A stretch of DNA of 64,000 nt, taken from Kiloniellales bacterium. Its GTDB lineage: Bacteria > Pseudomonadota > Alphaproteobacteria > Kiloniellales > JAKSDN01. The notes beneath the pieces were generated by a model that worked only from the letters and a program-made list of their open reading frames with translations, made no database searches and was not told the DNA's origin. Of the stretch, positions 31,707-46,357 are shown piece by piece (position 1 is the stretch's first letter; every line of letters starts with the position of its first letter). The position numbers were made by a program, and so were the translations under genes. The stretch covers positions 1 through 64,000 of the forward strand of contig JANQLT010000039.1 of NCBI GenBank assembly GCA_028280455.1, written 5' to 3'.

Positions 31707-32213
31707 ATGCTGGAATCGAACGCTGCACGCGCAAGCACCCTGGACGACAAGGACGCCGAGACGGCGGAACGGGTCACGATCGAGACTCGCTTCGGCATCT
31801 TGGAGTTCGGTCCGGAAAACCGGCTCTTCATGCCGGTCGGGCTGCTCGGCTTCTCGGAGTATCGCCACTTCGGCCTGGCCGAGATGCCGCAGCCTGAGCT
31901 GGCCGACTTCCGGCTCATGCAGTCCCTGCAGGACGACAAGCTGAGCTTCATCGTCACGCCGATCAAGCTCGACGGCGGCGAAGTGGCCCACGAGGACCTG
32001 GAGGACGCCGCCCTCTCCGTCGGCGTGCCGGTCGACTCGGCCGCCTTCGTGCTGATCGTCACCATCCGCCCGACGGCCGACGGCAGCCACGTGACCGTCA
32101 ACCAGCGCGCGCCGGTGGTGATCGACGTCAACCGCGCCATCGCCCGCCAAGTGGTCATGGCCAACAGCAGCTACCCGATCCAGCAGCCGCTGCAGCTTCT
32201 CAGACAAGGTTAA
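31707..32213 (+). CDS. fliW: Flagellar assembly factor FliW
   Basis: Protein antagonist of CsrA: in Bacillus and Campylobacter it is sequestered by cytoplasmic flagellin, and when freed by flagellin export it binds CsrA and releases flagellin translation. 168 residues with the family core VTIETRFGILEFGPENRLFM, PVGLLGFSEYRHFGLAEM and LMQSLQDDKLSFIVTPIKLD; later VTVNQRAPVVIDVNRAIARQ. It has an N-terminal extension of about 20 residues. ATG with GAGGAG upstream and a sigma-54 promoter of its own. The partner csrA is at 8727. Confidence 0.93.
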   Translation: MLESNAARASTLDDKDAETAERVTIETRFGILEFGPENRLFMPVGLLGFSEYRHFGLAEMPQPELADFRLMQSLQDDKLSFIVTPIKLDGGEVAHEDLEDAALSVGVPVDSAAFVLIVTIRPTADGSHVTVNQRAPVVIDVNRAIARQVVMANSSYPIQQPLQLLRQG

Positions 32214-32269: not shown

Positions 32270-34561
32270 ATGAGCCAGGCCCAGAGAGCCCTTCGCGAGA
32301 CTTCCGACCAGAATCGCCAACAGCGCCGGCAGGCCAAGCGCCTGGCCCGCCGCGGCCTGAAGCGCGGGCTGGGCGGCCTGTCGCCGCTCGAGGCCGCCGA
32401 CCGGCAGCACCGCGCCGGCAACCTGGCCGAGGCCGAGACGCTCTACCGCCGGGTGCTCGACGAGGCCCCGGACGACCTGATCGCGCTCAGCCAGCTCGGT
32501 GCCCTCTGCGCCCAGACCCAGCGCTACGACGAGGCCGTGCCGCTGCTCGAGAAGGCCCTGGCGGTCGATCCGCAGCATGGCCCGACGCACATGAACCTCG
32601 GCGTCATCCACGCCGCCCAGGGCCGCGACGCGCAGGCCGACGCGAGCTTCCGCAGCGGCGCCGCGAGCGCGCCGGGCGATCCGGAGACCCAGAAGAACTA
32701 CGCCACCTGGTGCCACAAGCACGGCCGCCTGGAGGAGTCCGCCGCCGCGCTGGAGCGGGGCCTCGCCGCCGAGCCGCAGGATCTGGCCCGGCAAAGCCTG
32801 CTGGGTCAGATCTACGGCCAGCTCGGCGACCGCGACAAGGCGCGCCGCCGCTTCGAGCAGGCCCTGGCGCTCTTCCCCGAGGACGCCGAGCTTCATGCGC
32901 GGCTCGGCGCGCTGCTGGCGACCGGCGGCGACCCCAAGGCGGCCCTGCCGCACCTGGCGCGCGGCCTATCGCACATGGCGCAGTCGCGTCACTACAAGGC
33001 GCTCTTCCTCGAGGCTCTCGGGGCCATCGAGATCGAAAGCTACGACCCGGCCCTCGAGGCGGCCCTCTTGGCCTGCCTGGAGGACCCGAAGATCGAGGCG
33101 CAGCGCCTGAGCGCCGCCCTCGGCAGCACGCTCTGGCTGAAGTACGTGCGCGGCGCGAGCCTGCAGGACGGCAGCACCGGCAAGGGCCCGACGCTGCAGA
33201 TGGACGGGGTCCTGATCGACGCCGGCCTGCTGCGGCTGCTGCAGGACCTGGTCAACGTGAACCTCGGCCTCGAGGTCCTACTGGTGCCGCTGCGCCGGCT
33301 GCTGCTCTTCAAGATGCGCGAGAAGGCCGCCCAGATCCCGGAGATCAGGCGCTTCGTCGCGGCCTTCGCCATGCAGTGCCACGCCAACAGCTACATCTTC
33401 CAGACCAGCGAGCCGGAGCTGGCCGAGGTCGATCGGCTGCAGGCGGGCCTCGAAGCGCGCCTCGCCGCCCCGGTCGTGATCGATCCGGCCTTCGAAACCG
33501 AGATCGCTCTCTTCGCCCTCTACCGGCCGATCCATAGGCTCGACGGTTTCGCGTGCCTCTGCGCCCTGCCCGCCACGGCCTGGTCCGAGCCCATGCAGCC
33601 GCTGATCCGGCGGGCCCTGACCGAGCCGACGGAGGAGCAGAGACTCAAGACTGCGATCCCGCGCTTCGGGGCGATCGAAAACGAGGTCTCCCGTGCCGTG
33701 CGCGCGCAGTACGAGGACAACCCTTACCCGCGCTGGGTCTCGCTGCCGCAAACCGAGTCCGGTCCGCTGCAGGCCCTGGTCCGCGCCGGTGGCGTGGATT
33801 TCAGCGTGCCGGACGGCATCGATGAGAGCCTGAAGTGCCTGATCGCCGGCTGCGGCACCGGCCGGCATCCGATCTCGGTCGCCCTGGTGCTGCGCCATGC
33901 CGAGGTGACGGCCGTCGACCTGAGCCTCTCGAGCCTGGCCTACGCCAAGCGCATGGCGGCCCGCTACGACCTGGACCGGATCCGCTTCCTACAGGGCGAC
34001 CTGCTCGACGTCGGCGCCCTGGGCCAAGCCTTCGGCCTGATCGAGAGCATGGGCGTGCTGCATCACATGGCGGAGCCCGAGCGCGGCCTCGAAGCCCTGC
34101 TCGGCGTGCTGAAGCCCGACGGGCTCCTGCACCTCGGCCTCTACAGCGCGACGGCCCGCCAGGCGGTGCAGCGCGCCCGCGAGCGGATCGAGGAGCTCGG
34201 CCTCGACAGCTCGCCGGAGGCGATCCGCGACTTCCGCCGGCGGACCATCGTCGGCCAGGAGCCCGACATCCGCGACCTGGCCGGCATGGCCGACTTCTTC
34301 GACCTGGACAGCTTTCGGGACCTGGTGTTCCACGTCCAGGAGCACCAGTTCACGATCCCCGAGCTCGACGCGCTGCTGTCCCGACAGGGCCTGACCTTCC
34401 TCGGGTTCTCCGGCCTTCGGCGGCCGATCCAGCAGGCCTTCGCCGAGCGCTTCCCGCAGGACGGCGCGCAGCGCGACCTCGAGGCCTGGCACGGCTTCGA
34501 GGCCGACAATCCAGCGACCTTCCGCGGCATGTACAAGTTCTGGTGTCGACGAAAGGGCTAG
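32270..34561 (+). CDS. TPR protein fused to a SAM-dependent methyltransferase, copy 1
   Basis: 763 residues. A basic N-terminus (NRQQRRQAKRLARRGLKR) is followed by about five TPR units (residues 40-245; for example EAVPLLEKALAVDPQHGPTH), a helical middle part, the motif NPYPRW at about residue 484, and a class I methyltransferase fold with SAM motif I LIAGCGTGRHPISVAL, an acidic end of the next strand (VTAVDLSLSS) and IESMGVLHHMAEPERGL. The C-terminal part shares DFFDLDSFRDLVFHVQEH with the next gene. TPR-methyltransferases of this form often modify proteins or sugars. Placed between fliW and the flagellin gene, flagellin or its glycan is the obvious candidate substrate, but that is inference. 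Confidence 0.85.
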   Translation: MSQAQRALRETSDQNRQQRRQAKRLARRGLKRGLGGLSPLEAADRQHRAGNLAEAETLYRRVLDEAPDDLIALSQLGALCAQTQRYDEAVPLLEKALAVDPQHGPTHMNLGVIHAAQGRDAQADASFRSGAASAPGDPETQKNYATWCHKHGRLEESAAALERGLAAEPQDLARQSLLGQIYGQLGDRDKARRRFEQALALFPEDAELHARLGALLATGGDPKAALPHLARGLSHMAQSRHYKALFLEALGAIEIESYDPALEAALLACLEDPKIEAQRLSAALGSTLWLKYVRGASLQDGSTGKGPTLQMDGVLIDAGLLRLLQDLVNVNLGLEVLLVPLRRLLLFKMREKAAQIPEIRRFVAAFAMQCHANSYIFQTSEPELAEVDRLQAGLEARLAAPVVIDPAFETEIALFALYRPIHRLDGFACLCALPATAWSEPMQPLIRRALTEPTEEQRLKTAIPRFGAIENEVSRAVRAQYEDNPYPRWVSLPQTESGPLQALVRAGGVDFSVPDGIDESLKCLIAGCGTGRHPISVALVLRHAEVTAVDLSLSSLAYAKRMAARYDLDRIRFLQGDLLDVGALGQAFGLIESMGVLHHMAEPERGLEALLGVLKPDGLLHLGLYSATARQAVQRARERIEELGLDSSPEAIRDFRRRTIVGQEPDIRDLAGMADFFDLDSFRDLVFHVQEHQFTIPELDALLSRQGLTFLGFSGLRRPIQQAFAERFPQDGAQRDLEAWHGFEADNPATFRGMYKFWCRRKG

Positions 34562-34599
34562 GCAGCGCCCAGGCGCGTGCCCAACAGAGACAGGAAGCC

Positions 34600-36921
34600 A
34601 TGACCCAGCCATTGCCGATCGACCAGAGCAAGGCCAGACCGCTCAACCGCAAGCAACGCCGCCAGGCGCAGAAGCGGGCCAAGAGCCGTCAGGCGAAGGG
34701 AGCCGCGGCGACCGGCCTGCCGAGGGGCCCGGCCGACGACAAGCTCGACAAGGCGGCGCTGCACCACCAAGCCGGCGACTATGCCCCGGCCGAGGCGCTC
34801 TACCACGAAGCGCTCGCCCTCGACCCGGGGAACGCCACGGCGAGCTTCCGGCTGGGCTCGCTGCTGGCCCAGACCGGGCGCTATCAGGAGGCCCAGCCGC
34901 TGCTCGAACGCGCCCGGGAAGCCGCCCCGGACAACGTCCACATCCACAACAATCTGGGCGTGATCTACCGCGCCCTGGGCCAGAGCGAGCAGGCCGGCCA
35001 GAGCCTGCGCCGGGCCTACGAGATCGGCCGAGGCGACGCCGACGCCGCCAAGAACTACGGCTCCTGGTGCTTCGACGCCGGTCGCTTCGTCGAGGCCGTC
35101 GAGGCGCTCGAGCGGGGTCTGGCGATCGCGCCGAGGGACGCGCGCCGATGCCACGAGCTGGCCGTCGCGCTCTCCAACCTGGAGCGCTTCGAGGAGGCGC
35201 GAGTCCGCTTCGGGCAGGCCCTCGCGCTCGATCCCGGCAACGCGGAGATGTCGATCCAGCTCGGCGTCGCGCAGGCCGCGACCGGCTTCTGGGACGAGGC
35301 CTTTCCCAATCTCGCACGCGGTATCGCCGGCGGCTTCACCAAGCCCGAGTTCCAGATCTTCTTCGCCCGCGCGGCCACGCAGTCGCCGCTGGAGGACTAC
35401 GACGAGACCGTCGAGCGCGCCTTCATCGCCTGCTTCGAGAGCGAGGTCGCGGACCTCGGCAAGCTCGCCCTGCAGGCAGGCCGGCTCATCGGCCTGAAAT
35501 ACATGCAGAACTCGCGCGTGGAGCAAGGCCAAGCGGGCAACGGCCAGAGCACGATGCACCTGGACGGGATCCTCGGCGACCGGCTGCTCGTCCTCATGCT
35601 GCAGAAAACCGTGGCCAAGCAGATCGGCTTGGAGAACCTGCTCTGCCCGCTGCGCCGGGTGCTCCTGAAGAAGGCGCGCGGCCTCGCCGAGATCGGCGTC
35701 GAGCCGCTGCGCTTCATGGTCGCCTTCGCGATGCAGTGCCACCACAACAGCTACGTCTATAGCTGCGGCGAGGACGAACTGCGCGAGGCCGAGGAGGTGA
35801 TGCGGGCGCTGGCCAAGCGCCTCGGCCGAGACAAGTCGCCCGACACGCGCATGGAGATCGCGCTGGCGCTCTCGGCCATGTATCGGCCGCTGCACGACCT
35901 CGAGCACTTCGAGAAGCTGCTCGCCTTTCCGCTCGACGCCTGGTCCGAGGAGCTGCGGCCGCTGATCGAGCTGAGCCTGTTCAACCCGGCCGAGGAGCAG
36001 GATCTCAAGGCCGGCATCGCCAGCTTCGGTGCGATCGACGACGCCACCTCCCAGGCGGTTCGCTCCCAGTACGAGGAGAACCCCTATCCGCGCTGGAGCA
36101 CGATGCCCATGCAGCGGGCGCTCGGCTTCCCGGCATACCTCAAGATCAACTTCCCCTGGTTCGAGCCGCAGCCGGAGGCGCCGGAGGCGCCGAGCGTCCT
36201 GATCGCCGGCTGCGGCACCGGCCGGCACCCGATCGGCGTCGCCCGAGAGCTGCCGAAGGCGCAGGTGCTGGCGATCGACCTGAGCCTGGCCAGCATGGCC
36301 TACGCCAAGCGCATGGCACGGCGCTACGACGTCCGGAATCTCGACTTCCGGCACGGCGACCTGCTGCAAGTCGGCGCCCTGGGCCAGCAGTTCGACGTCA
36401 TCGAGTCGGTCGGCGTGCTGCATCACTTGCGCGAGCCGGAGGCCGGGCTCGCGGCCCTGATCGGCGTCCTCAAGCCCGGCGGCTACCTGAAGATCGGGCT
36501 CTACTCGGCCATGGCGCGCCGCTGGATCACGGCGGCGCGAGAGCGCGTCCGGGAACTGGGGCTGGAGCCGACGACAGAGGATATCCGGCAGTTCCGCCAA
36601 CGGGTCATCGGCGGCCAGGAACCGAACCTGGACCGCTACGTCGGCATGTCGGATTTCTTCGACCTGGACAGCTTCCGGGATCTCGTGTTCCACGTCCAGG
36701 AGCACTGCTTCACGGTCCCGCAGATCAAGGCGCTCCTGGAGCGCCACGGCCTGGTCTTCCTCGGCCTGCCGGAGACCAGCGCCAAAGAGCGGGATCTCTA
36801 CCGCGCGCTGTTTCCCGACGACGAGGAAATGCGCGACCTCGACCGCTGGCACGAGGTCGAGCTGGCCAATCCGGACTGCTTCATCTCGATGTACGACTTG
36901 TGGTGCCGCAAGCCGCTGTGA
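34600..36921 (+). CDS. TPR protein fused to a SAM-dependent methyltransferase, copy 2
   Basis: 773 residues from the ATG at 34600 (GGAAG upstream), a full-length paralogue of the preceding gene: basic N-terminus (LNRKQRRQAQKRAKSRQAK), TPR units at about residues 45-250 (YHEALALDPGNATASFRLGS), middle domain with FMVAFAMQCHHNSYVYS (copy 1 has FVAAFAMQCHANSYIFQ), NPYPRW, then LIAGCGTGRHPIGVAREL, AIDLSLASMAYAKRMARRYD and IESVGVLHHLREPEAGL. The two copies have diverged well beyond recent duplication, so both have probably been kept under selection. Followed by the flagellin control region. Confidence 0.85.
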   Translation: MTQPLPIDQSKARPLNRKQRRQAQKRAKSRQAKGAAATGLPRGPADDKLDKAALHHQAGDYAPAEALYHEALALDPGNATASFRLGSLLAQTGRYQEAQPLLERAREAAPDNVHIHNNLGVIYRALGQSEQAGQSLRRAYEIGRGDADAAKNYGSWCFDAGRFVEAVEALERGLAIAPRDARRCHELAVALSNLERFEEARVRFGQALALDPGNAEMSIQLGVAQAATGFWDEAFPNLARGIAGGFTKPEFQIFFARAATQSPLEDYDETVERAFIACFESEVADLGKLALQAGRLIGLKYMQNSRVEQGQAGNGQSTMHLDGILGDRLLVLMLQKTVAKQIGLENLLCPLRRVLLKKARGLAEIGVEPLRFMVAFAMQCHHNSYVYSCGEDELREAEEVMRALAKRLGRDKSPDTRMEIALALSAMYRPLHDLEHFEKLLAFPLDAWSEELRPLIELSLFNPAEEQDLKAGIASFGAIDDATSQAVRSQYEENPYPRWSTMPMQRALGFPAYLKINFPWFEPQPEAPEAPSVLIAGCGTGRHPIGVARELPKAQVLAIDLSLASMAYAKRMARRYDVRNLDFRHGDLLQVGALGQQFDVIESVGVLHHLREPEAGLAALIGVLKPGGYLKIGLYSAMARRWITAARERVRELGLEPTTEDIRQFRQRVIGGQEPNLDRYVGMSDFFDLDSFRDLVFHVQEHCFTVPQIKALLERHGLVFLGLPETSAKERDLYRALFPDDEEMRDLDRWHEVELANPDCFISMYDLWCRKPL

Positions 36922-37010
36922 ACGCCACGCCAAGACGTCGTGGTTAAGACCGACGAAAGGATATTTCTTGCCGTCGCCGATGCCGTACTGGGCAGAAATT
37001 GCCGCAAAGC

Positions 37011-37201: not shown

Positions 37202-39535
37202 ATGCCTCTTAATATCATCTCCAACTTTGCCGCCAACGTGGCGCACCGCAATCTGGCCATGTCAGACCGCGGTGCATCGGCCTCGGTCGCCAAGATCTCG
37301 GCCGGCTCGCGCGTTTTGGCGGCACGCGACGACGCCGCGGCCCTGGCCATCGGCTCCCGGCTCCGTGCCGAGGTTGCTGCGATGAAACAGGCCAGCGTCA
37401 ATGCCGGCCAGGCCGTGTCCATGCTCCAGATCGCCGACGGCGCGATGGCGCAGGTCAACGACACCCTGGTCCGCATGCAGGCCCTGAGTGTGCAGGCCGG
37501 TTCCGATCAGCTCGGCAGCGTCGAGCGGAGCCTGATCGACGCCGAGTTCCAGCAGCTGCTTCTCGAAGTCGACCGTATCGCGGCCGACACCGAGTTCAAC
37601 GGCCAGTCGCTGATCAGCGGCGGCACCCTGTTCAACCTGGTCCAGGCCTCCGACGCCGGCACCGACGGCTTCTCGAGCATCGCGTTCGATTCTTCCGTTA
37701 CCGGCTCCTCGGTCTTCCAGTACAGCTACGCCTCTTCGACCGAGACCCTGACGGTGACCAAGACGGCCGTCGACGGCACCCAGCTGAACACGGCCACCGG
37801 CGTGGACTCGACCAACTTCACGGACAACAACATCTCCGTGACGCTGGCGAGCGGTGTCGATCCGGACTCCTTCACCTACAGCTACGCCGAAGCGACGCAG
37901 CAGCTGACGGTGAACAACATCAACACCGGCGAGACCGCGACGGTCGACATCACCGACTCGTTCAATGCCGCCTTCGGCTCCTCGACCAACATCCTCACCG
38001 CCGGGCAGACGCTCGACGTCGAGTTCGCCTCCCTGGGCGTCACGGTCACCTTCGACCAGGGATTCGATCGGACTTCGGCTCTGTCGGTGGCCAACGCCGC
38101 GGCCACGCAGGCCTCGGCCAGTATTGCTGACGACACCAACGGCAACGGCACGATCTCCGCGATCTCCCAGGCCACGACCGGTGTCACCGCCAATGCGATC
38201 GAGGTCCTCAAGGCCCTCAACTCCGCCGGTGCCGCGGTCTACGACGCTGCTGCGGGCACCCTGACCTTGACCCTCAATCTGGGCGTCGCCGACACCATCA
38301 GCTTGAACGGCGGCAACCGGATCACCACGGCGTTCGGCAACTTCGACTTCAACGGCAACGCCAACGTGACCGCCGACGGCAACGCCGGCAACTTCACCCT
38401 CGACTTCGACGGTGTCAGCCTCTTCACGCTGACTCAGAACACCGATATCGACGGCGGCGGTGACGACACCGGCACCTTGACCGTGACGGTCGGCAACCTC
38501 TTCTCGAACGTGCAGAGCAACTCCGCTGGCTCGAACGAGACGGTGCAGATCGATCTCACCGACAACATCGATGCGGTGGCCGGGACCGGCAACAACCTGT
38601 CCTTCGACCAGACGCTCGATGTCGATGTCGAGCAGTTCGGCGTGACCCTGACCCTCGACAAGGGCTTCGACCGGACCAGCAACGTCACGACCACGACCGG
38701 TACCGTTACCGACAGCTCGACCTCGGTGACGGGCACCGACTCCTTCGCGGTCAACTCCGGCTTCCTGACGGCCGACGTCTACGATGCCCTGCTCAAACTG
38801 GGCTTCGACGCGGCCACCGGTGTCGGCTACAACGCCAATACCGGTGTCCTGACGCTGGGCACGACGGAAAGCACCTCCGGTAACGGCTCCGCCGTGTTGG
38901 ATGGTCTGGCCGGAATTCGCTACGACAACGGCGTCTCCGGTGAGGCGAGCTCCAACCTCGAGAACGCCACCAGCACCGTTGCCATCGGCCTGGTTCTGGC
39001 CAACGGCAGCACCGTCGATCTTGGCGACTACACGGCGGCCTTCCGCAACGCGGCTGCCAATGGCTCGACGGGCTCGGTCGGCATCCAGCTCGGCCGGGGC
39101 GTGTTCTACAATCAGGTGAACGCCAATGCCTCGAGCAACAGCTTCACCTTCAAGATCGGCACCGGCCAGGAGACCCAGGACAGCGTGACTCTCGAGCTCA
39201 ACTCGGTGACCACGCAGGCCTTGGGAATCAATGGTCTGGATACCACGACGTCGACCAACGCCGACACCGCCGCTGCGGCGATCTCTGGTGGTATCACGAC
39301 CTTGAACAAGGCCCGGGCCAACATCGGTGCGTCTCAGAACCGTCTCGAAATCGCCGTCTCCAACCTGGCGACTGCGACCGAGAATACTGAGGCCGCCAGA
39401 AGCGCCCTCTTGGACCTCGACGTGGCACAGGAAATCACGACCTTCACGTCGAAGCAGATCCTGGTCCAGGCTGGTGTCTCGATGCTGGCACAGGCCAACC
39501 AGCTGCCGCAGAACCTGCTACGTCTGCTGCAGTAA
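37202..39535 (+). CDS. Flagellin 1, very long
   Basis: 777 residues; most alphaproteobacterial flagellins are about 270-500. The conserved ends are clear: MPLNIISNFAANVAHRNLAM, SRVLAARDDAAALAIGSRLR and IDAEFQQLLLEVDRIAADTE at the N-terminus; TTLNKARANIGASQNRLEIA, VAQEITTFTSKQILVQAGVS and MLAQANQLPQNLLRLLQ at the C-terminus. The surface-exposed middle (about residues 165-620) is rich in Thr, Asn, Asp and Gly and contains two related modules at about residues 268 and 469, both ending in GFDRTS. ATG with AGGAGAG upstream, sigma-54 promoter, followed by flaG, fliD and fliS. Paralogous along its length to the flagellin at 44027. Confidence 0.97.
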   Translation: MPLNIISNFAANVAHRNLAMSDRGASASVAKISAGSRVLAARDDAAALAIGSRLRAEVAAMKQASVNAGQAVSMLQIADGAMAQVNDTLVRMQALSVQAGSDQLGSVERSLIDAEFQQLLLEVDRIAADTEFNGQSLISGGTLFNLVQASDAGTDGFSSIAFDSSVTGSSVFQYSYASSTETLTVTKTAVDGTQLNTATGVDSTNFTDNNISVTLASGVDPDSFTYSYAEATQQLTVNNINTGETATVDITDSFNAAFGSSTNILTAGQTLDVEFASLGVTVTFDQGFDRTSALSVANAAATQASASIADDTNGNGTISAISQATTGVTANAIEVLKALNSAGAAVYDAAAGTLTLTLNLGVADTISLNGGNRITTAFGNFDFNGNANVTADGNAGNFTLDFDGVSLFTLTQNTDIDGGGDDTGTLTVTVGNLFSNVQSNSAGSNETVQIDLTDNIDAVAGTGNNLSFDQTLDVDVEQFGVTLTLDKGFDRTSNVTTTTGTVTDSSTSVTGTDSFAVNSGFLTADVYDALLKLGFDAATGVGYNANTGVLTLGTTESTSGNGSAVLDGLAGIRYDNGVSGEASSNLENATSTVAIGLVLANGSTVDLGDYTAAFRNAAANGSTGSVGIQLGRGVFYNQVNANASSNSFTFKIGTGQETQDSVTLELNSVTTQALGINGLDTTTSTNADTAAAAISGGITTLNKARANIGASQNRLEIAVSNLATATENTEAARSALLDLDVAQEITTFTSKQILVQAGVSMLAQANQLPQNLLRLLQ

Positions 39536-39550
39536 TTCTTGCCCATCGGT

Positions 39551-39574
39551 CCGGGGAGGTTGCCGCCTCCCCGG
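39551..39574 (+). terminator. Hairpin after flagellin 1 without a T tract
   Basis: Perfect 9-bp stem CCGGGGAGG / CCTCCCCGG with a 6-base loop, 15 bases after the stop and with no T run behind it. It probably acts as a 3' stabiliser or partial attenuator between an abundant flagellin message and flaG, rather than as a full terminator. Confidence 0.6.
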
Positions 39575-39590
39575 GCCACGGCGCGCCCGC

Positions 39591-39606
39591 CGGGCCGGTC
39601 TTTGCA
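39591..39606 (+). promoter_or_regulatory. Probable sigma-54 promoter of flaG
   Basis: CGGGCCGGTCTTTGCA: GG at -24, GC at -12 and TTGCA are in place, but the -24 flank is poorer than in the other flagellar promoters. It would serve flaG, fliD and fliS. Predicted start near 39617. Confidence 0.5.
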
Positions 39607-39701
39607 ACGGCCTTAGTAATCTTGCAAAGGAATTGAGGACGCTGGCGTAGAACCGCTACCTGGGAAAGGGGGGACGTGAGGCGCCAGCGCCAGGAGAGAA
39701 T

Positions 39702-40064
39702 ATGATGGAGGTCAAAAACGTCAGTCCGGTTGCCTTCGGCACCCCGAGACCGCAGCCCAACACGGCGCGGAGCTCCGGGGCGGTCGACGCGGCAGCCCAG
39801 CCGGACCCGGCCTCGACCAAGGTCCCTGGCGAGATCTCCGGGCAACTGGCCCGGCGACTGCTCGCCGACAGTGGCATCAAGCAGGCGGACATGGACCGCT
39901 TCCGCGTCAAGCTCGATATCGACGGCGATACCGGGCGCGTGGTGGCAGAGGTCCGCAACCGGGAGACCAACGAGCTCGTGACGGAAGTCCCCTCGCGAAA
40001 GCTCCTGCGTCACGCCGCGATGCTCAAAGAGACCCTTGGCATGATTCTTGATAAGCCAGTCTGA
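39702..40064 (+). CDS. flaG: FlaG family protein
   Basis: 120 residues. The C-terminal half is the FlaG domain: FRVKLDIDGDTGRVVAEVRN and NELVTEVPSRKLLRHAAML. FlaG proteins influence filament length in several bacteria; the mechanism is unclear. The N-terminal 55 residues are disordered and proline/alanine-rich. ATG with AGGAGAG. Lies between flagellin 1 and fliD, the usual place for flaG. Confidence 0.9.
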   Translation: MMEVKNVSPVAFGTPRPQPNTARSSGAVDAAAQPDPASTKVPGEISGQLARRLLADSGIKQADMDRFRVKLDIDGDTGRVVAEVRNRETNELVTEVPSRKLLRHAAMLKETLGMILDKPV

Positions 40065-40102
40065 GGCCAAACGCGCCGTTTCGGCGGCGCCGGGAAGCGG
40101 AC

Positions 40103-43102
40103 ATGGTCAGTAGTCTGAATCTTAACAACTTCTCGGTTGACGAGAACGGCCGGGTCACGGTCGCCGGTATCAGCTCCGGAATCGACTTCACGAGCGCCGT
40201 CGACAGCATTATCGCCGCCAGGCGGATCCCCGTGGACCGCCTGGAGGCCTCGGTCGAATCCAAGAGCGCTCAGATTACGGCCCTGGAGGATCTGCGGAAC
40301 CTCTTCAACACCCTCCGCACATCCCTGAACGACCTGCGCGGCCGCGTCACCTTCGGCGATGCCGGCGACGTCTTCGAGGCCAAGGACGTCTTCGCCTCGA
40401 CGACCGCCACCAGCGGCACGCCCTCAGCCGCCGGCACCTTGATGGGGGTCAGCGTCACCAACGCCGCCGCCACCGGCAGCCACAGCATCGAGCTGCTGCA
40501 GATCGCGGCGGCTCACCAGTTCTCGACGGACACCGCCGTCTCCAACACCGACAACCTGGGACTGGCCTTCGGCGGCAGCAGCCAGTCGGTCCACGGCGCC
40601 TTCGAGATCAACGGCAAGAGGATCACGGTCGAGCCCGGCGACAACCTGGTCGACCTGGCCGAGCGGATCAACAACGCCAACACCGGCTCCAGCGCCTCGG
40701 GCGTGACGGCCTCGGTGGTCTCCGTGACCAGCAGCCAGCACGTGCTGGTCCTGACCGCCGACGACACCGGCCAGAGCGTCACGGTGGCCAAGTCGCACCG
40801 GATCGGCGGCAGCACGGTGACCAGCACGACTGACGACCTGGGCACCGCCCTCGGGCTCGGCGCGAACGCCGTGGAAGGCGCCTTCGAGATCAACGGCAAG
40901 CAGATCGACGTGACCGCGAGCGACACGCTGTCCACTCTGGTCACCAAGATCAACAGCGCCAGCACCGGCGCCACCGCCTCGGTCCTGACCGTCAACGGCA
41001 CCAGCCGGCTGGCCCTGACCACCGACACCGCCAGCAGCAACGTCACGCTGGACCTCAATCACCGGGTCGGCTCGGGCACGGCGACGGACACGACCAGCGA
41101 TCTCGGCACCGCCCTGGGCCTCGGCGCGGGCACCGTGGCCGGCGACTTCAACCTGAACGGCCAGGCCATCTCGGTCACCACCAGCGACACCCTGACCACG
41201 CTGCGCGACAAGATCAACGCGGCCAACGCCGGCGCCACGGCAAAGATCATCACCAGCGGCGCCAACAACACCCTCGCCATCACCTCGGACAACGCCACCC
41301 AGCAGCTCGCCTTCACCGGCGAGACCGGCAGCGTGCTCAGCGAGCTCGGCATCTCCAACGACGGCGGCACGACCTTCCTCAACGAGCTCAGCGTCAGCAA
41401 CGACGTCCTGTCGGACCTCGGCCTCTCGACCGACGGCGGCTCGACCTTCGTGACGACCCTGAGCACGACCAACGACGTCCTGGCCGGCCTCGGCATCTCG
41501 GCCGACGGCGGCACGACCCTGACCAACGAGCTGCGCACCGCGCAGAACGCCCGCTTCCGGACCGACGGCCTGATCGACCTAAGCGCCTCGCAGACCTCAG
41601 GGGTGGCGAGCGCGACGACGGCCTTCAACCAGTCGGGCACGCTCTCGATCACCCTGCCCGACAACACCACGGAGGACATCTCCGTGGTCGTCGGCGACAC
41701 GCCGAACAGCCTGCGCGACAAGATCAACGCCAGCAGCAACCTCTCCGATGCCGGCATCACCGCCAGCGTCATCCAGGACGACGACGGCAACTACCGGGTC
41801 GAGATCCGCCAGAGCGAGCTGACCACGGCCGACCCCGGCGGCGTGCTCAACCTCAGCCTCGACGACCCTGCGACGACGCAGGTCGGGGTCACCAACACGC
41901 TGACCTTCAACTTCGGCACCAGCCAGATCGCCACGATCAACGTCACCGCGACCGACACGCTCAACGGCGTGCGCGACGCGATCAACGCCGACGTCAACCT
42001 GACCAGCGCCGGCGTCAGCGCCACGGTGGTGACCGAGGGCGGCAAATCCCGCCTGGTCGTTCAGCACGATGCGGACCTGACCGTCTCGGGGCCCTCCGGG
42101 CTCGGCCTCGCCACCCCGGAGCTGATCGTCGAGCGCAGCTCGAACACGGTCAGCGACCTCTTCGAGGGCGTCACCCTCTCCTTCTTCCAAGCCGAGGTCG
42201 GCACCACGGTCCAGCTCGACATCGAGCAGAACCTGGCCACCGCCCGGCAGGAGATCCTCGACTTCGTCGACGCCTACAACGCGGTCAAGAGCTTCCTCAA
42301 CCAGCAGCGCCTGACCGATCCCGAGACCGGCGGACCCTCGGCCGATGCCGGCGCCCTGTTCGGCAACCCCGTGGTCGGCAGCATCGAAGGCGCCATCTCC
42401 AGGACCCTCGGCCAGGGCGCCCAGGGCCTGAGCAGCGGCTTCCAGGTGCTCAACGAGATCGGCATCGAGTTCATCGACAACGCCGGCCTGAGCGATCCGC
42501 TGCTCGCCGACACCCTGCAGATCGACGAGACCGTGCTCGACGAGAAGCTGGTCAACGATCCTGGCGCGGTGCGCAACCTCTTCGCCTTCGACTTCTCGTC
42601 CTCGGATTCGCAGGTCGCCCTGCTCGACTTCACCGGCGAGACCACGGTCAAGAGCGGCGGCTACAGCCTCGACGTGACGGTCACCAACGGCGTGATCACG
42701 GCGGCCACCATCGACGGCGTGGCCAACTCGACGACGATCAGCGGCACCACGATCACCGCCACCAATGCCACGGGCGCCTCCGGGCTGAAGCTGGTCTTCA
42801 CCGGCAGCTCCTCGGTCTCCAACGTCAACCTGAACTTCTCGACCGGCGTCGGCTCGGACCTCTTCTTCGAGGTCGACAACCTGCTCAACGAGCAGACCGG
42901 CTCGATCCAGCTCGAGGCCGACAATCTGACCGAGCAGAACGAGCTGACCCAGTCGCGCATCGACACCCTGCTGGAGCGGCTCGCGGTTCAGCGCCAGCAG
43001 CTCCTGGACCGCTACGTCGCCATGGAGCAGGCCCTGGTCTCGATGAACAACACACTCGACACGATCCGCACGCAGATCGACGCGCTGACGGCGGACAACT
43101 AG
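40103..43102 (+). CDS. fliD: Filament cap protein FliD, greatly enlarged
   Basis: Cap at the filament tip that folds incoming flagellin. 999 residues, about twice the usual 450-500. N-terminal FliD domain: TVAGISSGIDFTSAVDSIIA then ARRIPVDRLEASVESKSAQI. The central region contains three hook-IN-like modules (GAFEINGKRITVEPGDNL, GAFEINGKQIDVTASDTL, GDFNLNGQAISVTTSDTL) and then three exact-length 24-residue tandem repeats. The C-terminal FliD domain has FVDAYNAVKSFLNQQ and ends in a coiled coil with LLDRYVAMEQALVSMNNTLD. ATG at 40103. Followed by fliS. Confidence 0.96.
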   Translation: MVSSLNLNNFSVDENGRVTVAGISSGIDFTSAVDSIIAARRIPVDRLEASVESKSAQITALEDLRNLFNTLRTSLNDLRGRVTFGDAGDVFEAKDVFASTTATSGTPSAAGTLMGVSVTNAAATGSHSIELLQIAAAHQFSTDTAVSNTDNLGLAFGGSSQSVHGAFEINGKRITVEPGDNLVDLAERINNANTGSSASGVTASVVSVTSSQHVLVLTADDTGQSVTVAKSHRIGGSTVTSTTDDLGTALGLGANAVEGAFEINGKQIDVTASDTLSTLVTKINSASTGATASVLTVNGTSRLALTTDTASSNVTLDLNHRVGSGTATDTTSDLGTALGLGAGTVAGDFNLNGQAISVTTSDTLTTLRDKINAANAGATAKIITSGANNTLAITSDNATQQLAFTGETGSVLSELGISNDGGTTFLNELSVSNDVLSDLGLSTDGGSTFVTTLSTTNDVLAGLGISADGGTTLTNELRTAQNARFRTDGLIDLSASQTSGVASATTAFNQSGTLSITLPDNTTEDISVVVGDTPNSLRDKINASSNLSDAGITASVIQDDDGNYRVEIRQSELTTADPGGVLNLSLDDPATTQVGVTNTLTFNFGTSQIATINVTATDTLNGVRDAINADVNLTSAGVSATVVTEGGKSRLVVQHDADLTVSGPSGLGLATPELIVERSSNTVSDLFEGVTLSFFQAEVGTTVQLDIEQNLATARQEILDFVDAYNAVKSFLNQQRLTDPETGGPSADAGALFGNPVVGSIEGAISRTLGQGAQGLSSGFQVLNEIGIEFIDNAGLSDPLLADTLQIDETVLDEKLVNDPGAVRNLFAFDFSSSDSQVALLDFTGETTVKSGGYSLDVTVTNGVITAATIDGVANSTTISGTTITATNATGASGLKLVFTGSSSVSNVNLNFSTGVGSDLFFEVDNLLNEQTGSIQLEADNLTEQNELTQSRIDTLLERLAVQRQQLLDRYVAMEQALVSMNNTLDTIRTQIDALTADN
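41333..41548 (+). repeat. Three 72-base tandem repeats within fliD
   Basis: Units 41333-41404, 41405-41476 and 41477-41548 each encode 24 residues of the pattern VLSxLGxSxDGGTTF then xxxLxxxND. The DNA copies differ mainly by synonymous or conservative changes, so the array is old enough to have drifted but keeps strict length. Confidence 0.9.
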
Positions 43103-44026: not shown

Positions 44027-46357
44027 ATGCCTCTGACAGTCATCTCCAACTTCGCGGCCAATGTGGCGCATCGGAACTTGGCCAAGTCCGACATGGAGAC
44101 GACCCGATCGCTGACCCAGCTGTCCAGCGGTCAAAGGGTCGTCAGCGCGCGCGACGACGCCGCCTCGATGGCGATCGGCTCTCGGCTCCGCGCCGAAGTC
44201 GCGGCCCTGCAGGCCGCCCGGGTCAACGCCGGCCAGGCCGTTTCGATGCTGCAGATCGCGGAAGGCGCGATGGGTCAGGTCGACGGCATCCTGGTGCGCA
44301 TGAAGTCGCTGGCGATCCAGGCCGGCTCCTCGCAGTTCGGCAGCGTCGAGCGAAGCCTGATCGACGCCGAGTTCCAGCAACTGCTGCTGGAGATCGACCG
44401 CATCGCCCAGGACACGGAGTTCAACGGCGCCAACCTGCTGGACGGCGGCGAGGCCAGCGTCCTGCTCCAGGCCAGCGACCCGGTGAACGACGGCATCTCC
44501 AAGATCACCGTCGACTCCAGCGTCGATGCCGACTCGGTGTTCCGCTACAGCTACGACGCCTCCAACGAGATTCTCTCGGTCACCAAGATGGGCGTCAGCA
44601 ACGTCATCGAGAACCGGGCGAAGGAGCTGTTCGACCAGGCCAACATCGGCTTCTCCTTCGGCTCGACGGTCGCCGACAACGCCACCTTCTCCTACAGCTT
44701 CGACCAGGCGACCGACGCCTTCACGATCACCAACCTGCTGACCAGCGAGACCTCGACGCTCGATCTCACCTCGGTGGTCGAGCAGGCCTTCGGCGCCGGC
44801 GCGGCCGGCGGCCAGGTCCCGTCCGGACAGAGCCTGGACGTCGACTTCTCCTCGCTCGGCGTGACGGTCACCTTCGGCGACAGCTTCGACTTCTCCTCGT
44901 CGCTGACCGCCATCACCAGCGTCACCCAGACCAACGTCACGAACGGCAACGGCAGCGGCGTCGCCACCACCTACAACAGCGGCCTCAGCGACCAGGCGAT
45001 CTCGGTCCTGAGCGGCCTGCTGGCCAGCGGCACGGCCGGCCAGCTCGCCCTGGCCACCACCGACGGCGGCAACGGCAACGGCCAGGTCTTCGACGCCCTG
45101 GCCGGCGTCGCCTTCTCGGTCGACGGCGGCACGGTCGGCACCCTCGGCGCCGCGACCGCCGCCCTCGCCGACGGCAACCACACCCTGGGCGTCCACATCG
45201 ACGCCGACGGCGACGGCACAGCCGACACGCAAGTTGCAAACGTGACGCTCACAGGCATGGCCGACGCCCAGGGCAACGGCAACGTCACCATCGACTTCCG
45301 CCAGCGGCTTTCCAATACACAGACCGTGGAAGCACTGGACGACCAGCAGATCCAGCTCGACCTGACCAATAGGATCGACACCTTGGCCGGCACCGGATTG
45401 AACCTGCAGGTCGGGCAGGAGCTCGACATCGATATTCCGCAATTCGGCGTCCAGCTCACACTGGACAAGGGCTTCGACCGGACGGTCAGCCTGGCCAACA
45501 CGATCGGCTCGGCCAGCGACACGGCCGGAACCACCGTGGCCAACGCCGCCTTCACGCCCAACACCACCTTCCTGACCGCCGACGTCTACTCGGCGCTCCT
45601 GGGGCTGGGCTTCGACAACACGACCGGCGTCGGCTACGACCCCAATACTGGCCTGTTGCGCCTGTCCGTCTCCGACGACAGCTCGGCCAACGGTGCCGGC
45701 AACGTGACGCTCGACGGCAAGACCGGGCTCAGTTTCGGCTTCGGTGTCGGCAACCCGACCGGCGATCTCAACGGCAACGGCTCGACCGTCGACATCTCCC
45801 TGACCCTGGCCGACGGCAGCGCGGTCGAGCTCGGCACGCTGACCGCCGACTTCTCCAATGCCGGCAACAACGGCGGCACGGTCGGCCGCCAGGGCACGAT
45901 CGACATCCAGCTCGGTCGCGGCATCTTCGCCAACCAGGTCGACGCCAACGCGCTGATCAACACCTTCAAGTTCCGGATCGGCACCGGCGAGGCGGCCTCG
46001 GACGAGATCAACCTGACCATCGACTCCGTCAACACGACGGCGCTCGGCCTGGCCGGCGTCGATACCTCGACGGAGGAGAACGCCAACGCCGCCTCGGTGG
46101 CGGTGAGCAACGCGGTCACCGGTCTCAACCGGGCGCGCGCCAACCTCGGCGCCCTGCAGAACCGGCTGGACATCGCCTCCACCAACCTCGCCGTCTCCCT
46201 GGAGAACAGCGAGGCGGCCCGCAGCCAGCTTCTCGACCTCGACATGGCCCAGGAGATCACGAACTTCACCTCGAAGCAGATCCTCCTGCAGGCCGGTGTC
46301 TCGATGCTGGCCCAGGCGAACCAGCTACCGCAGAACCTGCTGCGACTCTTCCAGTAG
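44027..46357 (+). CDS. Flagellin 2, very long
   Basis: 776 residues, paralogous to flagellin 1 over the whole length. N-terminus MPLTVISNFAANVAHRNLAK, SARDDAASMAIGSRLRAEVA and IDAEFQQLLLEIDRIAQDTE; C-terminus VTGLNRARANLGALQNRLDI and MAQEITNFTSKQILLQAGVS. The middle carries the same two modules at about residues 266 and 462 (LDVDFSSLGVTVTFGDSFDF; LDIDIPQFGVQLTLDKGFDR). The ATG at 44027 with GCAGGAGAC upstream gives the N-terminus shared with flagellin 1; a start 37 codons earlier adds unrelated sequence. Followed by a second fliS-like gene. Confidence 0.97.
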   Translation: MPLTVISNFAANVAHRNLAKSDMETTRSLTQLSSGQRVVSARDDAASMAIGSRLRAEVAALQAARVNAGQAVSMLQIAEGAMGQVDGILVRMKSLAIQAGSSQFGSVERSLIDAEFQQLLLEIDRIAQDTEFNGANLLDGGEASVLLQASDPVNDGISKITVDSSVDADSVFRYSYDASNEILSVTKMGVSNVIENRAKELFDQANIGFSFGSTVADNATFSYSFDQATDAFTITNLLTSETSTLDLTSVVEQAFGAGAAGGQVPSGQSLDVDFSSLGVTVTFGDSFDFSSSLTAITSVTQTNVTNGNGSGVATTYNSGLSDQAISVLSGLLASGTAGQLALATTDGGNGNGQVFDALAGVAFSVDGGTVGTLGAATAALADGNHTLGVHIDADGDGTADTQVANVTLTGMADAQGNGNVTIDFRQRLSNTQTVEALDDQQIQLDLTNRIDTLAGTGLNLQVGQELDIDIPQFGVQLTLDKGFDRTVSLANTIGSASDTAGTTVANAAFTPNTTFLTADVYSALLGLGFDNTTGVGYDPNTGLLRLSVSDDSSANGAGNVTLDGKTGLSFGFGVGNPTGDLNGNGSTVDISLTLADGSAVELGTLTADFSNAGNNGGTVGRQGTIDIQLGRGIFANQVDANALINTFKFRIGTGEAASDEINLTIDSVNTTALGLAGVDTSTEENANAASVAVSNAVTGLNRARANLGALQNRLDIASTNLAVSLENSEAARSQLLDLDMAQEITNFTSKQILLQAGVSMLAQANQLPQNLLRLFQ

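Follow-up and report, generated by a model that had tools for sequence, protein, structure and literature searches.

What do two adjacent methyltransferase genes do between fliW and a flagellin gene in the genome of a Kiloniellales bacterium? Methylation of flagellin is known, yet to our knowledge most cases still lack an assigned enzyme, FliB accounting for one kind only. We analyzed a stretch of 64,000 nucleotides (the window), in which a first-pass annotation had marked the two genes as a possible pair of enzymes methylating flagellin side chains or a flagellin glycan. The gene order on the plus strand was fliW, P0001, P0002, and flagellin 1, with flagellin 2 further on, as follows.

31707..32213, + strand: fliW (flagellin assembly factor, 168 aa), the upstream neighbor; PF02623, E 3e-17
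32270..34561, + strand: TPR-methyltransferase 1 (P0001), 763 aa; ORF, Pfam, and pairwise alignment
34600..36921, + strand: TPR-methyltransferase 2 (P0002), 773 aa; ORF, Pfam, pairwise alignment, and structure model
36954..36981, + strand: sigma-28-like box, putative flagellin promoter; CTAAAG-N16-GCCGWW with one mismatch
37202..39535, + strand: flagellin 1, 777 aa, 9 Lys, probable substrate; Flagellin_N and lysine count
44027..46357, + strand: flagellin 2, 776 aa, 9 Lys, probable substrate; Flagellin_N and lysine count

The start of P0002 was placed at the ATG at 34600, within a longer open frame, which yields 773 aa, and the length of flagellin 2 was counted from the ATG at 44027. The annotation had described two full-length paralogues of 763 and 773 residues between fliW and a flagellin gene; both ORFs were recovered at these coordinates and on this strand, with PF02623 encoded upstream and Flagellin_N downstream. 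The pairwise alignment also bore out its description of diverged copies that keep the same domains, as P0001 and P0002 shared 47% identity over 749 residues with two gaps and the same Pfam domains, both ORFs being intact. The intergenic gaps of 56 bp (fliW–P0001) and 38 bp (P0001–P0002) suggest that the pair is probably part of the flgKL-fliW transcript. The sigma-28-like box between P0002 and flagellin 1 was the sole match in the window with one mismatch and is weak evidence, because many three-mismatch hits arise by chance.

In both proteins, Pfam recognized TPRs in the first third and a class I methyltransferase in the last. The parts of P0002, and the corresponding motif of P0001, are located as follows.

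34600..34713, + strand: basic N-terminal tail of P0002, residues 1–38, with the motif NRKQRR; low model confidence at its start
34729..35442, + strand: TPR arm of P0002, residues about 44–281, about seven helix pairs; Pfam and model
35560..36045, + strand: conserved helical middle domain of P0002, residues about 321–482; no Pfam, NCBIfam, or PDB fold match
36079..36096, + strand: NPYPRW motif of P0002, residues 494–499; invariant or nearly so in 73 sequences
36079..36918, + strand: methyltransferase with helical insert of P0002, residues about 494–773; fold of Rv2067c and of Rickettsia PKMT2 and PKMT1
33716..33733, + strand: NPYPRW motif of P0001, residues 483–488; translated ORF

The features of a class I SAM-dependent methyltransferase were present, with Methyltransf_11/25/31 above the Pfam cut-off and a Rossmann core in the model. 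TPRs, NPYPRW, and a methyltransferase with LIAGCGTGRH had been claimed for both copies, and Pfam together with an alignment of 73 sequences confirmed them, the two motifs being nearly invariant across the alignment. Its 18 invariant columns included P497 and W499 of NPYPRW, the glycines of the SAM motif (G537, G539, and G541), the acidic residue after beta 2 (D560), and D587, H608, H609, R693, and E701. Since the family-invariant residues and the SAM motifs are kept in P0001 and P0002, both are predicted from their sequences to be active. The P0001 counterpart of the basic NRKQRR motif is NRQQRR. A basic N-terminal NRxxRR motif was rejected as a family hallmark, being present in 10 of 141 members versus 2.3 expected by shuffling; it also occurs in some TPR-sulfotransferases and is not general.

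The structure model of P0002 had a mean pLDDT of 93 and a pTM of 0.89. Its TPR arm best matched the TPRs of MamA, PilF, and OGT (Z 20–23). Residues 492–773 aligned with Rv2067c (8hkr) with a VIA-align Z of 24.0 and an rmsd of 3.2 Å over 261 residues, and the catalytic half also aligned with PKMT2 of R. typhi (5dpl; VIA-align Z 20.2, 3.5 Å, 254 residues) and PKMT1 of R. prowazekii (5do0; Z 19.4, 254 residues). Profile matches covered the core through the post-core region for 8hkr (E 1e-38) and a stretch beginning before NPYPRW for Rickettsia PKMT2 (E 1e-11), whereas the match to the D-glucose O-methyltransferase 6uv6 was limited to the core. Over its full length, the catalytic half is thus nearest, among solved structures, to protein lysine methyltransferases and not to sugar methyltransferases. 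In Rv2067c, the active site lies in a trough that takes extended, unfolded protein substrates, with the highly conserved Tyr20 directed at SAM (PMC10739865). Tyr496 of NPYPRW would match Tyr20, judging from the terminal residues of the structural alignment (492 against 16), and by analogy such a trough would suit flagellin prior to export.

Between the TPRs and the methyltransferase, about 160 residues had no Pfam match, and none was found in NCBIfam. Modelled alone, this middle domain reached a pLDDT of 90.6, and searches against the PDB returned no significant match (Foldseek best E 1.7, VIA-align best Z 5.9), a null result that does not prove a new fold.

Each of the known systems resembles a part of these proteins. 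Rv2067c is the H3K79 methyltransferase of M. tuberculosis, whose substrate is a host histone (PDB 8HKR, PMC10739865); it was the best match of the catalytic half and shares the catalytic core and the inserted helical dimerisation subdomains with P0001 and P0002, but it has neither the TPR arm nor the middle domain and carries a C-terminal domain of its own. Rickettsia PKMT1 and PKMT2 and Acinetobacter KmtA are surface-protein lysine methyltransferases with an outer-membrane protein and an adhesin as substrates (PMC11784438). PKMT1 and PKMT2 share the fold of the catalytic half (Z about 20), both in the surroundings of NPYPRW and in the part that follows the core, whereas the later PKMT domains are unmatched and the methyltransferase of P0001 and P0002 is C-terminal, behind the TPRs and the middle domain. 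The two proteins end at the catalytic half and have their extra domains before it, unlike the Rv2067c/PKMT type with one or more domains after it. The known substrates of PKMT1, PKMT2, and KmtA are large surface proteins; the substrate proposed here is flagellin. Caulobacter FlmG is a TPR protein with a glycosyltransferase acting on flagellin, and its TPR part binds flagellins (PMC7591256). Like FlmG, P0001 and P0002 join an N-terminal TPR arm and a modifying enzyme of the cytoplasm in one polypeptide, in an organism with an alphaproteobacterial flagellum, but their catalytic half is a methyltransferase rather than a GT-B glycosyltransferase and their genes lie inside the flagellin locus. FliB, the flagellin lysine-N-methylase (NF038110), would have the same outcome, methylated flagellin. 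The annotation's statement that the pair is not FliB held for the architecture, which differs; NF038110 was absent from the NCBIfam hits listed and gave no match at E 1e-3 in the window genome, in a search in which the control genomes were silent too. A TPR arm with an enzyme acting on flagellin (FlmG) and this methyltransferase fold acting on surface proteins (PKMT1/2, KmtA) are known parts. Our literature search, with subscription papers outside its scope, returned no paper on TPR-methyltransferases and flagellin, and in the literature searched we found no description of the TPR-methyltransferase combination, the middle domain, or the recurrent placement at flagellin loci.

The distribution of the family was surveyed with a profile covering the middle domain and everything C-terminal to it. 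Occurrence was patchy: a class-wide draw of 387 alphaproteobacterial genomes had members in 66, and members were present in 16 of 61 genomes of the window's own order, 17 of 397 across the phylum, and 7 of 29 in one genus. Most surveyed genomes were drafts, gene calls outside the window were simple ones, and flagellins were searched afresh within the fetched loci. The window genome has three members, the tandem pair and a third paralogue on contig C161, next to a gene that we take, from its sequence alone, to be acrylyl-CoA-reductase-like.

No member of the first homologue set lay within about 10 kb of any flagellin gene, and most of the 157 members eventually collected, the C161 paralogue included, are away from flagellar genes. 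The non-flagellar sites were heavy-metal islands, a conjugative-pilus region, sites beside glycosyltransferases, and sites among housekeeping genes; plasmid-borne members occurred within heavy-metal islands, close to genes for a conjugative pilus, or together with glycosyltransferases. Plasmids of Phenylobacterium, Hydrogenophaga, and Caulobacter (L076, L077, and L080) carry family TPR-methyltransferases among heavy-metal efflux genes. At L216/L217, a shorter family member adjoins an mnmA-like tRNA-modification gene on the opposite strand, followed by fliK-flgD-flgE-fliF-fliG. We rejected the idea that the whole family is flagellar, as the majority of members lie elsewhere, and flagellin is accordingly not the family's general substrate.

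The opposite idea, that there is no link to flagella at all, was rejected by the class survey with flagellin positions. In the class draw, the methyltransferase adjoined flagellin genes in five genomes (G406, G109, G196, G276, and G155). With the window genome left out, 4 of 83 methyltransferases lay <1 kb from a flagellin gene versus 0.17 expected (P 3e-5) and 5 of 83 lay <2 kb versus 0.28 expected (P 1e-5), under a chance calculation of random gene placement that ignores operon and island structure. Flagellin loci held 15 of the 157 collected members, counting the window pair, which is not a frequency estimate because the collection includes targeted fetching within two genera. All 15 were on the flagellin strand, and in 12 of them the flagellin start was 120–300 bp downstream (P0002, L115, L125, L128, L147, L190, L193, L194, L196, L197, L200, and P0001, the tandem taken as one unit). 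Placement at a flagellin locus thus recurs in unrelated genomes and on separate branches; the strand is that of the flagellin in every case, and the position is mostly immediately upstream of it. The first-pass annotation had asked how often such genes accompany flagellin genes and had counted homologues mostly away from flagellar genes against its proposal. That is what we found for the family as a whole, and a general flagellin system had to be given up; it is not what we found for the lineage of the window.

The flagellin-associated members fell into four lineages that were separate on the tree, with a parsimony count of four changes. Lineage A comprised P0001, P0002, and L128 (G109), a locus that starts at a contig end and has the same order as the window (methyltransferase-flagellin-flaG-fliD-fliS-flagellin). 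Lineage B (L115, L196, L197, and L200, one genus) occupied the slot after fliW and before flagellin, with one flagellin intervening in L197; 4 of the 7 family-bearing genomes of this genus have the methyltransferase in that slot. Lineage C (L125, L135, and L190–L194, another genus) lay within arrays of FlaF/FlbT-type flagellins, and did so in 7 of 7 genomes bearing that subtype. Thirteen other genomes of the lineage C genus bear a different, shorter subtype instead, with no flagellin nearby in seven fetched loci (L162, L164, L170, and L220–L223). In this genus, that of G196, a single member was present in each of 20 of 24 genomes: 7 had the long form of the flagellin arrays and 13 the shorter one, never both. 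Lineage D was represented by L147, with flbT, flaF, the methyltransferase in two frames, and flagellin; this broken gene (L147:8988-10744) is a pseudogene or an assembly error. The flagellins were FliW-linked in lineages A and B and FlaF/FlbT-linked in C and D, and fliW was not found in the stretches fetched around the latter two.

The trees were quick searches, and AU tests were run on 44 rows. A single clade was rejected for A + B (p 0.0028) and for A + B + C (p 0.0012); A + C was borderline (p 0.0504), a single origin not being rejected, and B + C was not rejected (p 0.126). Together with the tree, these results support at least two independent flagellin associations, and the tree shape suggests three or four. 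P0002 grouped with L128 rather than with P0001 (support 96–97), indicating that the duplication predates the split of the window genome and G109.

At 19 loci, the gene touching the methyltransferase encoded another TPR-fused enzyme, of the GT41, other GT, 2OG-Fe(II) oxygenase, or sulfotransferase type; this adjacency places the methyltransferase among modifying enzymes built to a shared design. Like P0001 and P0002, the TPR-sulfotransferases, TPR-GT41, and TPR-2OG-Fe(II) oxygenases of the same genomes consist of a TPR arm and a catalytic half, and they differ in chemistry. We found no described function for the bacterial TPR-sulfotransferase and TPR-oxygenase forms in the literature searched. 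TPR-sulfotransferases lay between lineage C flagellin genes at three loci, as follows.

L192:2890-9296: four ORFs, one confirmed by Pfam and the others resembling L135 in the N-terminal part
L191:4404-5975: one TPR-sulfotransferase
L135:6084-7661: one TPR-sulfotransferase

Their position amid flagellin genes beside a TPR-methyltransferase suggests sulfated flagellin. A swap of TPR arms between methyltransferase and TPR-sulfotransferase within one flagellin array was unsupported, each arm being nearest to the TPRs of its own enzyme type. Elsewhere in the window genome, contig C48 (L228) has a TPR-sulfotransferase, a TPR-GT41, and a TPR-2OG oxygenase side by side, and contig C219 (L227) has a very long ORF rich in repeats, next to which lie a TPR-GT41 and a further TPR protein. 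The genome also has three NeuB-type synthase genes and TPR-glycosyltransferases, none close to the P0001/P0002 pair. We tentatively entertain a wider scheme, at less than even odds, in which exchangeable TPR arms would bring methylation, sulfation, hydroxylation, and glycosylation to the same exported proteins in Alphaproteobacteria; flagellin would have been recruited several times, and some filaments would carry methyl and sulfo groups.

The two window flagellins contain nine lysines each in 777 and 776 residues, about five and six of them in the variable part, and the L115 flagellins had zero in the stretch counted. By composition, the flagellins are rich in Thr, Ser, Asn, and Asp. So few lysines are a poor fit for large-scale lysine methylation such as that by FliB, and this composition makes a glycan acceptor a serious rival. 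A third flagellin of the window genome (816 aa; L224:10927-13377, contig C155 about 38926-41376) contains, inserted between its Flagellin_N and Flagellin_C domains, a complete subtilase (Peptidase_S8, E 3e-55) whose Asp, His, and Ser motifs look intact; an ABC transporter gene (PF00664 + PF00005) adjoins it. Known proteolytic flagellins bear a metallopeptidase, and the main text of the report on them does not mention subtilisin (PMC5595980).

We put the probability that P0001 and P0002 carry out TPR-guided methylation of flagellin side chains in the cytoplasm before export at about 0.5. Both would work in the cytoplasm as SAM-dependent methyltransferases, and their TPR arms, by analogy with FlmG, would hold flagellin monomers before export; the Rv2067c/PKMT-type catalytic half may then methylate side chains of the unfolded flagellin, with reaction, timing, and a polypeptide acceptor all predicted, and the filament would be built from methylated subunits. 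Because relatives have come to adjoin flagellin genes repeatedly during evolution, the enzymes probably decorate flagellin before export.

The acceptor might instead be a glycan on flagellin (a nonulosonic acid, for instance) or the precursor of that glycan; the TPR arm would then recruit the enzymes to glycosylated flagellin. The Ser/Thr/Asn-rich, Lys-poor flagellins, the NeuB-type and TPR-glycosyltransferase genes of the genome, the TPR-GT41 and other TPR-GT genes touching family members elsewhere, and the TylF- and Methyltransf_23-type methyltransferase genes and the TPR protein near L147 all agree with this, yet the whole catalytic half is nearest to protein lysine methyltransferases, 6uv6 matches the core only, and no glycosylation gene adjoins the pair within the window; we consider a glycan acceptor rather unlikely. 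It is improbable that the family is mobile cargo with unrelated protein substrates and an accidental adjacency to flagellin: such cargo would explain why the family is so unevenly spread (66 of 387 genomes, 7 of 29 in one genus) and the members on plasmids and in heavy-metal islands, but not the same strand in 15 of 15, the shared slot of separate lineages, the proximity to flagellin (P about 3e-5 if genes are placed at random), the retention in seven genomes of one genus, or the two diverged yet intact copies. Least probable by our estimate, and hardly to be expected, is another flagellar target (FliW, FliS, hook-filament proteins, or a regulator), whose modification would time flagellin synthesis or export instead of decorating the filament. 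Probable co-transcription with flgKL-fliW across the 56 and 38 bp gaps, and the related enzyme near fliK-flgD-flgE-fliF rather than flagellin at L216/L217, would suit such a target; the neighbor common to the lineages is flagellin, however, and the stretches fetched around C and D have no fliW.

Methylation of flagellin side chains remains our preferred reading. A TPR-fused relative of surface-protein methyltransferases that recurs at flagellin loci is a testable candidate flagellin methylase. It suggests a general rule by which the TPR arm would select the exported protein while the catalytic half is exchangeable, and it would link flagellin modification to the surface-protein lysine methylation of Rickettsia and Acinetobacter.
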